Assembly: GCF_004402235.1 (NCBI RefSeq)
Contig: NZ_SOFS01000015.1
Location: forward strand, 124,001 to 188,000
Length of the DNA: 64,000 bases
Direction: 5' to 3'
Origin: Cryobacterium glucosi
GTDB lineage: Bacteria > Actinomycetota > Actinomycetes > Actinomycetales > Microbacteriaceae
A program made the translations under genes and the position numbers. The notes beneath the pieces were generated by a model. That model worked only from the letters and a program-made list of their open reading frames with translations. It ran no database searches and was not told where the DNA came from. This document shows positions 43,444-44,612 of this stretch, one piece after another (the first letter of the stretch is position 1; the number at the start of each line of letters is the position of its first letter).

Positions 43444-43785
43444 ATGCGCGACCTTGCACCAACCATTTACCGGCAGCGTCTTGTCATCGAGGCCTACCCC
43501 GCCGAACCGATCAGCGCAGTGCAGATCACGGACTACTTGTCAGGGCTTGCCCCGGTGCTCGACATGAAAGGCCTGATCGAACCGGTCACGCATCGCAGCG
43601 ATCTGTACGGCTGGGCCGGGTGGACTCACTGGGAAACGTCGGGGGCGCATTTCTACGCGTGGGAACAACCGGTGCTCTTCTACAGTGTCGACATCTACAC
43701 CTGCAAGCCGTTCGACCCCCTCGTGGCCGTCGAATACACCACGCGTTTCTTCGGCAGTGCCAGCGCCGAATACAAGGAGTTTTAG
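43444..43785 (+). CDS. SpeD-like protein (AdoMetDC fold) without canonical cleavage Ser
   Basis: 113 aa. The C-terminal half aligns with S-adenosylmethionine decarboxylase proenzymes: WETSGAHFYAWE...YSVDIYTCKPFDPLVAVEY corresponds to the ESHxSxHTWPE...AVDVFTC...P..ALEY core. The residue at the expected self-cleavage serine is Thr (ETS), with a Ser one position later, and two residues are inserted after the E. Pyruvoyl formation is therefore doubtful or altered, and a changed substrate or non-catalytic role is possible. ATG 43444 has GGGGGA ten bases upstream; ATG 43435 lies too close to that site. The stop overlaps the GTG of the GNAT gene by one base (TAGTG). No spermidine synthase is nearby. 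Confidence 0.7.
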   Translation: MRDLAPTIYRQRLVIEAYPAEPISAVQITDYLSGLAPVLDMKGLIEPVTHRSDLYGWAGWTHWETSGAHFYAWEQPVLFYSVDIYTCKPFDPLVAVEYTTRFFGSASAEYKEF

Positions 43786-44612
43786 TGCCGACCCGCGACA
43801 CCGATACCGTGATCGGCGCCGAGGTGTTCAGCCCCCGATACGACCTGAGCGATGCCGAGCTCGAGGACCTCACCGTGCGGCTGCTCGCCGCGCGCACGCG
43901 TGACCTCCCGGAGCACTACCGGCTGGTCGCGATCGAGGTCGACGGCCGGAGCCCGTTTTCGAACGTCGGCCGGCACGTGGAACGTGTTGTCTTCGAGGCG
44001 ACGTTCGGCAACGATGCCGCGCAGATGACGGACGAGTACGGCGCGTACGAGGGCACGAGCACATTCTTCATCTCCATCGACAGGGACACCGGCACGCCGA
44101 GCGGGGTGCTGCGGATCATCGAGGATTCCCCGCATGGACTCAAGAGCCTCAACGATGCCGCCCAGGAACCGTTCAATCTGGAACTCGATGAGGCGTTCCG
44201 CTTTCACGCGATCACCGATCCGACCGAGATCTGGGACATCGGCACCGTCGCCGTCCTCCCCGACTACCGTCGCGGCGAAGCAGCGGTGAGCGTGCAGCTC
44301 TACCGCGCCATGTACCTCTCCGCGCTCGTGCACCGGATCAAGCACATTGTGTCCATCGTCGACGACCGCCCGCTGCGCAAGATGCGGGACTTTCTGGGCA
44401 TCCCGTTCGTACCGCTCGCCGACACTCCCCCTGGTCCGTACCTCGGCTCGAAGAAGAGCCACGCCGTCTACGGGTACGTGCCGCACTTCCTGCCGAAGGC
44501 GCGGGCGCACCGCGACACCATGCGCGGCCTCCTCGTCCGCAACGCCCTGCAGCGCCTTGTCGACGGCACGGAAGACGACTCGATCAGCCTCGACGTCCAG
44601 CCCGGCGCCTGA
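43785..44612 (+). CDS. GNAT-fold protein with LuxI/autoinducer-synthase-like features
   Basis: 275 aa. The N-terminal half carries the arrangement seen in N-acyl-homoserine-lactone and exosortase-linked acyl synthases: RVVFEATFG (cf. R..VF), MTDEYGAYEGTSTFFISIDR, TGTPSGVLRIIE. The second half has IWDIGTVAVLPDYRRGEAAVSVQLYR, a GNAT acyl-CoA/ACP motif A with RRG. No LuxI sequence identity is claimed beyond these patterns; it may be an acyltransferase on an amine. GTG 43785 is the start: AAGGAG lies six bases upstream and the codon overlaps the preceding stop. Coupling to the SpeD-like gene suggests both act on the same SAM- or amine-derived metabolite. Confidence 0.7.
   Translation: MPTRDTDTVIGAEVFSPRYDLSDAELEDLTVRLLAARTRDLPEHYRLVAIEVDGRSPFSNVGRHVERVVFEATFGNDAAQMTDEYGAYEGTSTFFISIDRDTGTPSGVLRIIEDSPHGLKSLNDAAQEPFNLELDEAFRFHAITDPTEIWDIGTVAVLPDYRRGEAAVSVQLYRAMYLSALVHRIKHIVSIVDDRPLRKMRDFLGIPFVPLADTPPGPYLGSKKSHAVYGYVPHFLPKARAHRDTMRGLLVRNALQRLVDGTEDDSISLDVQPGA

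Follow-up and report, generated by a model that had tools for sequence, protein, structure and literature searches.

A SpeD-like gene coupled to a LuxI-like GNAT gene in Cryobacterium glucosi and distant bacteria: a candidate pair for acylated-amine synthesis, often found beside signalling genes

Two overlapping genes in a 64,000-nucleotide stretch of the Cryobacterium glucosi genome (assembly GCF_004402235.1, contig NZ_SOFS01000015.1, positions 124,001 to 188,000; hereafter the window, numbered from its first letter) resemble two well-described enzyme families, the S-adenosylmethionine (SAM) decarboxylases (AdoMetDC, encoded by speD) and the LuxI-type synthases of acyl-homoserine lactones (AHLs). 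In the class 1b AdoMetDC of Thermotoga maritima, residues S63, H68 and C83 are named as essential for processing, and some SpeD relatives, SpeDA and SpeDC, decarboxylate arginine or ornithine and are expected by the same authors to keep H68 (PMC10407285). For the AHL synthase LasI, a putative SAM pocket of R23, F27 and W33 has been described (PMC1282579). A pyruvoyl-type decarboxylase is tied to a GNAT-domain protein in the PanD/PanZ system (PMC3496974), and 18 LuxI homologues adjoin sensory kinases in genomes of the candidate phyla radiation (CPR; PMC7567580).

The window's pair consists of a SpeD-like gene of 113 amino acids (43444..43785, forward strand, ATG start) and a LuxI/FeeM-like GNAT gene of 275 amino acids (43785..44612, forward strand), whose GTG start lies within the stop codon of the SpeD-like gene. 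A first-pass annotation of the window had described a one-base overlap, and both open reading frames were confirmed with it: TAG and GTG have one base in common in the TAGTG at 43783..43787 (forward strand). Upstream of the SpeD-like ATG there is a run of G that ends approximately 10 nt before the start. Within the host genus, Cryobacterium, nine genomes carry the pair, the window's own included.

We used the SpeD-like alignment to scan 84,980 species genomes, which gave 192 pattern matches, 159 of them confirmed, and fetched the best 80 loci. These come mainly from Cryobacterium, metagenome-assembled genomes (MAGs) of Saccharibacteria and other Patescibacteria, Geodermatophilaceae, Actinotalea, Acidimicrobiia and Micromonosporaceae; Mycolicibacterium sphagni is also represented, and so are a few MAGs from other phyla. 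The Cryobacterium loci are from the same genomes as our survey of that genus, so the two are not independent. A lack of conserved linkage in other genomes had been named beforehand as a refuting outcome, but a GNAT gene stands immediately 3' of the SpeD-like gene in 74 of the 80 loci. The nearest in-frame GNAT start is -3 to +18 nt from the SpeD-like stop in 70 of these 74, and 25/74 have exactly the one-base overlap when judged by the nearest in-frame start codon. Pairwise distances of the SpeD-like and GNAT proteins correlate (r 0.85, n=72, 0/999 permutations); one GNAT alignment excludes L015, L028 and L043. The six loci with no downstream GNAT are from two Patescibacteria MAGs, a Planctomycetaceae MAG, a Bdellovibrionales MAG, an unplaced MAG and an actinomycete MAG, and other genes occupy its position in them. 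The GNAT's place is held by a 310-amino-acid protein with no Pfam match, Rossmann-like by impression only, in the Bdellovibrionales MAG (L067:6333-7262), and by a protein with an arginine-deiminase match in the Planctomycetaceae MAG (L064:6429-7559).

Surveys of single groups started from both genes. Of 57 genomes of the genus, 9 have the GNAT, as do 1 of 199 sampled from the family (the window's own) and 2 of 396 sampled from the phylum. The SpeD-like gene is just 5' of it in all eight Cryobacterium genomes besides the window's and in the second of the phylum matches. The GNAT frame of C. breve (L015:6090-7170) is split in two, with the pieces overlapping, which may reflect a broken gene or a sequence error. 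The family of Blastococcus saxobsidens has the SpeD-like gene in 27 of 112 genomes and the GNAT in 28 of 112, with the two adjacent in 27/27 and an internal stop in the one extra GNAT; co-occurrence there has a hypergeometric p of 4e-25 on the assumption of independent genomes, which they are not. In the Saccharibacteria class, the SpeD-like gene was found in 11 of 244 genomes and a GNAT match in 17 of 244, and eight of the 11 have an adjacent GNAT (one weakly matched). One Saccharibacteria genome holds a strong GNAT match (L151, G704:C1:355783-356550; E 2.8e-57), and the SpeD-like gene was not found there. We conclude that the pair is real and coupled beyond chance, in distant genomes, and we are confident that both proteins act in one pathway.

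The first gene had been assigned to the AdoMetDC fold on its sequence patterns, and profile and structure searches both support this. Its product matches Pfam AdoMet_dc (PF02675) with 34.1 bits, above the cut-off of 25, and scores 13.3 bits against the NCBIfam SpeD equivalog TIGR03330, below the cut-off of 75.65. An AlphaFold2 model was made from an alignment of 61 sequences, i.e., the window protein and those of 60 of the 80 loci (58-95% identical to it), with near-duplicates and cut or outlying genes dropped. The model has a predicted local distance difference test score (pLDDT) of 97.2 and lies inside the AdoMetDC fold, with T. maritima AdoMetDC as the top Foldseek match (1tmi: TM-score 0.79, root-mean-square deviation 2.1 Å, 18% identity). 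Another structure, 1tlu, matches likewise (0.79, 2.1 Å), and the first five rows are 1tmi, 1tlu, 1vr7 (two chains) and 2iii. The SpeD-like protein is therefore predicted with good support to have the AdoMetDC fold, although its family forms a sequence group separate from class 1b SpeD. A PF02675 search of the window's own genome missed even the window gene and is thus uninformative on further copies.

Residues around the cleavage site were compared with canonical class 1b SpeD from Actinomycetota, using 15 rows (14 distinct) from 24 PF02675 loci; the other nine loci did not fit the canonical motif used and were omitted. In this alignment, the self-cleaving Ser (T. maritima S63) corresponds to S66 and the Glu just before it to T65, while Y71 takes the position of the processing His (H68), A58 that of S55 and C87 that of the catalytic Cys (C83). 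The canonical Ser-His reads Ser-Gly, making the family an S-G-x-H-x-Y variant of the class 1b enzyme, and codons 66-68 (Ser-Gly-Ala, 43639..43647, forward strand) are the predicted place of chain cleavage. S66, G67, Y71 and C87 are unvarying in 80/80 scanned loci and in 30/30 loci obtained by routes other than the peptide pattern; H69 is present in 80/80 and 28/30, respectively. Because one of the two peptide patterns used for scanning includes S-G and Y, part of the constancy within the 80 loci comes from selection, but the 30 control loci came via the GNAT or a profile and are free of that selection.

The first-pass annotation had Thr in place of the self-cleaving Ser, but this was a register slip, because S66 aligns with the cleavage Ser and never varies; Thr at the cleavage site is ruled out by the alignment with canonical SpeD. 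A pseudoenzyme is also disfavoured given the invariant Ser and Cys. Judged on its residues, the family carries a consistent but different set around the cleavage site and does not look like a decayed SpeD. A changed substrate has precedent, since SpeD relatives acting on arginine or ornithine have been described, but the sections of that paper on SpeD processing and relatives hold no precedent for a changed processing His (PMC10407285). H68, which SpeDA and SpeDC are expected to keep, is absent from the present family. Three diverged SpeD-like genes in the Saccharibacteria class (L127, G870:C22:12368-12703; L128; L129; E 1e-23 to 1e-34) keep S66, G67, Y71 and C87 and vary around them, and no adjacent GNAT was found for these.

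The second gene holds the motifs R..VF, DEYGxYE and TGxPxGxLR that had led it to be called an autoinducer-synthase-like GNAT. The window protein has no Pfam match, with Autoind_synth absent from matches at E up to 10, and Autoind_synth is also absent from the Pfam matches of nine close members. Two of these nine weakly match Acetyltransf_5, a general GNAT family (best E 0.1), and all nine weakly match TIGR03694, the exosortase/PEP-CTERM-associated acyltransferase, far below its cut-off. An AlphaFold2 model (9 sequences, pLDDT 78.0) lies inside the GNAT fold, so neither protein is placed outside its proposed fold, the other outcome that had been named in advance as refuting. Searching with this model placed BjaI, a LuxI-type synthase, at rank 1, the N-acyl amino acid synthase FeeM (2g0b) at rank 2 and LasI at rank 15, among many ordinary GNATs and with SpeG structures lower in the list. 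TM-scores to the query are 0.43-0.46 for BjaI, FeeM and LasI (BjaI 0.45, LasI 0.43), so the match is of the core only. When a 52-sequence GNAT profile (the window and 51 of the 80 loci, with near-duplicates and cut or outlying genes dropped) was compared with 8 plasmid-borne LuxI synthases, hhalign gave a probability of 96.9% and E 1.7e-10. The earlier assignment therefore holds: among GNAT folds, the gene falls in the LuxI/FeeM branch.

In common with LuxI, the GNAT has the Phe (F70, 52/52), two acids of the Glu/Asp cluster (E84, and E89, which is Glu or Asp in 47/52), the Arg of the next strand (R110) and the acid after Trp (D151, Asp or Glu in 52/52). It differs at the LuxI SAM-pocket Arg, where E66 stands in 52/52 (placed by a one-residue ungapped extension beyond the printed hhalign alignment), at the SAM-pocket Trp, which is N76 in 51/52, and at a later LuxI Arg, which is T154 in 48/52 and Ser in 4. 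With two of the three SAM-pocket residues replaced, the protein would be no standard AHL synthase, and use of SAM by it becomes less likely. The expectation that both families would use SAM or amines and acyl donors is weakened on the SAM side: going by its residues, this LuxI relative probably has an acceptor other than SAM itself. With FeeM the likeness is one of fold match only, but acylation of an amine would be common to both.

What the pair's product might do is suggested by the genes around it, which we found by clustering roughly called genes in the 80 loci. A neighbour cluster of GGDEF-EAL proteins (plus a few stray frames) is represented in 46 loci; 14 loci have response regulators and 11 have histidine kinases. 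Searching by motif instead, a signalling gene lies within 3 kb in 62 of the 80 loci (GGDEF/EAL 47, kinase 11, response regulator 4), although the response-regulator pattern misses Saccharibacteria regulators that clustering found and the Ser/Thr-kinase pattern missed two kinases detected by translation. GGDEF/EAL motifs number 48 in the 437 kb near the pair versus 2 in the 327 kb further off, and kinase motifs 12 versus 1 in the same lengths. Among 19 genomes searched, fifteen from actinobacteria have 11-54 EAL domains each and four from Saccharibacteria have none. Chance adjacency would therefore be rare, but many of the loci are related by descent.

The type of neighbour follows the lineage, with membrane-domain GGDEF-EAL proteins near the pair in Actinomycetota and histidine kinases plus response regulators in Saccharibacteria. 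By blastp linkage, 39 of 40 GGDEF proteins have one shared N-terminal region, and 37 of these 39 have 8-10 hydrophobic segments there. Their genes lie either upstream in the pair's own orientation or downstream in convergent orientation, and the N-terminal region is common to both arrangements. In Saccharibacteria the gene order is response regulator, SpeD, GNAT, kinase, and several Saccharibacteria loci, like that of M. sphagni, have a co-directional kinase gene just 3' of the pair. Pfam searches of three neighbouring kinases found HisKA_7TM in two (L021 and L030); the third (L024) has no HisKA_7TM at E up to 0.01, but its N-terminus aligns with those of the other two (52% and 42% identity). 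Two Winogradskya loci have a Ser/Thr kinase after the pair (L050 by Pfam, L059 by translation), and in four Cryobacterium loci a response regulator precedes it (two confirmed by Pfam). The upstream regulator of C. fucosi (L017:5052-6068) matches half of a receiver domain only, unlike L019, and looks degraded. In a search confined to the window, one simple pattern found no LuxR-type helix-turn-helix.

We therefore propose, tentatively and at slightly less than even confidence, that a decarboxylated amine is N-acylated to give a signal. The SpeD-like protein would be a small pyruvoyl-type decarboxylase, self-cleaved at S66, that turns an amino-acid-like substrate into an amine; candidates for this substrate are SAM and, by analogy with SpeDA/SpeDC, a basic amino acid. 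The GNAT would next join an acyl chain from acyl-coenzyme A (acyl-CoA) or an acylated acyl carrier protein (acyl-ACP) to the amine, and in many lineages the product would be a small diffusible signal read by the sensor next door. This sensor would be a membrane histidine kinase with its response regulator in Saccharibacteria (a similar kinase is present in M. sphagni) and a multi-transmembrane GGDEF-EAL protein in many Actinomycetota. Cryobacterium, including the window's species, has the pair with no such kinase or GGDEF-EAL gene beside it. Unlike in LuxI systems, the partner gene here is SpeD-like and the neighbours are kinases or GGDEF-EAL proteins. The proposal draws on what is seen in predicted folds, residue patterns, coupling, co-occurrence and sensor adjacency. 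Taken separately, amine plus acyl chemistry for the pair seems to us somewhat probable, and a signal seems a rather better guess than some other product. The window alone had already prompted the suggestion of two steps leading to an acylated amine or signal; the kinase, regulator and GGDEF-EAL neighbours elsewhere strengthen that suggestion, and the window's own pair, which no sensor gene adjoins, weakens it.

Several further observations weigh against the proposed signal route. The Saccharibacteria-type kinase is present in 0 of the 9 pair-bearing Cryobacterium genomes, and its matches in 2 of 57 genomes of the genus are both in genomes with no pair, so we rejected it as the receptor in Cryobacterium. 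Eighteen of the 80 loci have no signalling motif in 3 kb, although several of these end at contig ends and the patterns miss known cases. Pairing in the Saccharibacteria class is incomplete: among the 11 SpeD-like genomes, two have no GNAT match and one has the genes on different contigs, and 8 of the 17 genomes with a GNAT match have no SpeD-like gene (seven of these matches being weak). The two sensor types have no detectable common N-terminal domain (hhalign probability 1%), and we therefore rejected the idea of one receptor domain common to kinases and GGDEF-EAL proteins. The residue H68, called essential for self-processing (PMC10407285), is Tyr without exception here. Finally, adjacency is an association, not proof that the product is a ligand.

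Unlikely, but the main rival, is a model in which the GNAT acts as a maturase, binding the SpeD-like proenzyme and driving its cleavage like PanZ does for PanD in E. coli; the pair would then make an amine, and the GNAT would sense acyl-CoA status. PanD has a fold other than that of AdoMetDC. With the cleavage Ser and Cys kept and the equivalents of the processing His and S55 absent, the SpeD-like protein may need such help, and strict pairing and coupling would follow. There is also a precedent, as cleavage of PanD is activated by PanZ, an effect attributed to the acetyltransferase domain of PanZ (PMC3496974), although the genes overlap here and the GNAT is LuxI-like. This LuxI/FeeM-like character itself counts against a maturase, as do the viral, cyanobacterial and some bacterial S-G-x-x-x-Y relatives with no GNAT homologue detected in the fetched stretch, and the adjacent sensors are left unexplained by the model itself. 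Maturation and acylation may, however, both be roles of the GNAT.

It is also rather improbable that the pair makes a lipid of the membrane or surface (like an N-acyl amino acid or ornithine lipid) or another secreted metabolite, with the nearby cyclic di-GMP (c-di-GMP) and two-component genes regulating its synthesis and not sensing it. Envelope traits are often under the control of c-di-GMP proteins, which fits this model, as does the presence of FeeM among the best fold matches; the weak matches to the PEP-CTERM-associated acyltransferase TIGR03694 in 9/9 scanned members, far below the cut-off, point the same way. However, lipid or export genes make up 0 of 8 annotated neighbour clusters (three clusters of 4-5 loci are unannotated), and HisKA_7TM, a sensor domain, is present in two of the three neighbouring kinases scanned.

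We give little credence to a third model, in which the SpeD-like protein, its catalysis altered, stays uncleaved and serves as a SAM-binding subunit for delivery or sensing of SAM, while the GNAT uses SAM to make an AHL-like compound. The missing H68 and S55 equivalents would fit, and SAM is a substrate of both parent families, but a dead subunit would not need the invariant cleavage Ser and catalytic Cys (80/80, 30/30), and Glu66 and Asn76 alter the GNAT's SAM pocket. Ordinary polyamine metabolism, i.e., a SpeD for spermidine with a SpeG-like polyamine acetyltransferase, is very improbable: the AdoMet_dc match and the SpeG structures further down the fold list speak for it, but the protein falls well below the SpeD equivalog cut-off, BjaI and FeeM top the GNAT fold search, and there are 0 polyamine genes among the annotated neighbour clusters (no genome-wide spermidine synthase search was made).

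How Cryobacterium came by its pair was considered using a joint SpeD-like and GNAT tree of 63 rows, which omits L015, L028, L043, L044, L048, L051 and six near-duplicates, as does the GNAT-only tree. Six Cryobacterium rows group together (support 100/99) inside a clade otherwise made up of Saccharibacteria/Patescibacteria (12 rows, 98/92), which adjoins M. sphagni and Micromonosporaceae. From this tree, Cryobacterium may have gained the pair from a Saccharibacteria-like lineage. Both transfer and direction are tentative, however, because the joint tree is rooted at the midpoint only, the Cryobacterium placement is left open by the GNAT-only tree, and the letter composition of the Saccharibacteria rows is different.

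Relatives of the SpeD-like protein also occur with other partners. On plasmids of Acaryochloris, Nostoc and Halioglobus there are relatives with an S-G-x-x-x-Y core and no homologue of the pair's GNAT nearby; they are approximately 35% identical (L012:4908-6357, L013:6001-7120 and L014:6001-6363). The gene just 5' of the relative on the Acaryochloris plasmid is annotated as a different GNAT protein of 350 amino acids, and a Sir2 gene is 3' of the one on the Halioglobus plasmid. Twenty-eight viral contigs (L164-L191, e.g., L165:1057-5557) hold a SpeD-like relative, with an ESGxHxY core in 26. By motif, checked by Pfam on one contig, a saccharopine-dehydrogenase-like gene is nearby in 10 of the 28, accompanied by an aldehyde dehydrogenase on the same strand in 8, which suggests a phage-borne amino-acid pathway. 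A search of phage records with one SpeD-like protein gave no match. Phage or plasmid carriage of the pair was rejected, as a search of plasmids with the GNAT gave no match and the 28 viral contigs have the SpeD-like relative with no such GNAT. These relatives hint, but only hint, that a small enzyme forming amines has been reused alongside different partners.

Some of the 18 CPR LuxI homologues mentioned above may belong to this GNAT family, but the main text of that paper does not contain the word "decarboxylase" (PMC7567580). A survey of LuxI in Gram-positive bacteria has no mention of Blastococcus, Geodermatophil-, Cryobacterium, GGDEF or decarboxylase (PMC5539150). Judging by titles and the openings of abstracts in the open-access literature, with subscription papers and preprints outside this scope, we found no description of the pair or of SpeD together with autoinducer synthases. 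An acylated signal from such a pair may thus be undescribed.

Some ultrasmall Saccharibacteria live on actinobacterial hosts. It is conceivable, though we think it unlikely, that the two groups share a new class of signal, in which the amine comes from a re-wired decarboxylase, acylation is LuxI-like and the receptors are kinases or GGDEF-EAL proteins. Under that reading, and with as much reserve, transfer of the pair between Saccharibacteria and Cryobacterium could reflect exchange, mimicry or jamming of the signal. If the proposed signal route is correct, Actinomycetota would gain a small-molecule signal produced by an enzyme related to LuxI, with neighbouring sensor genes supplying ready candidate receptors, and Saccharibacteria would gain a cassette of synthase and sensor whose function could be assayed in E. 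coli. Signal synthesis would then have recruited the AdoMetDC fold, its processing site changed. Should the product turn out not to be a signal, a strictly coupled decarboxylase-like and acyltransferase pair in at least two phyla would still point to unknown acyl-amine chemistry.

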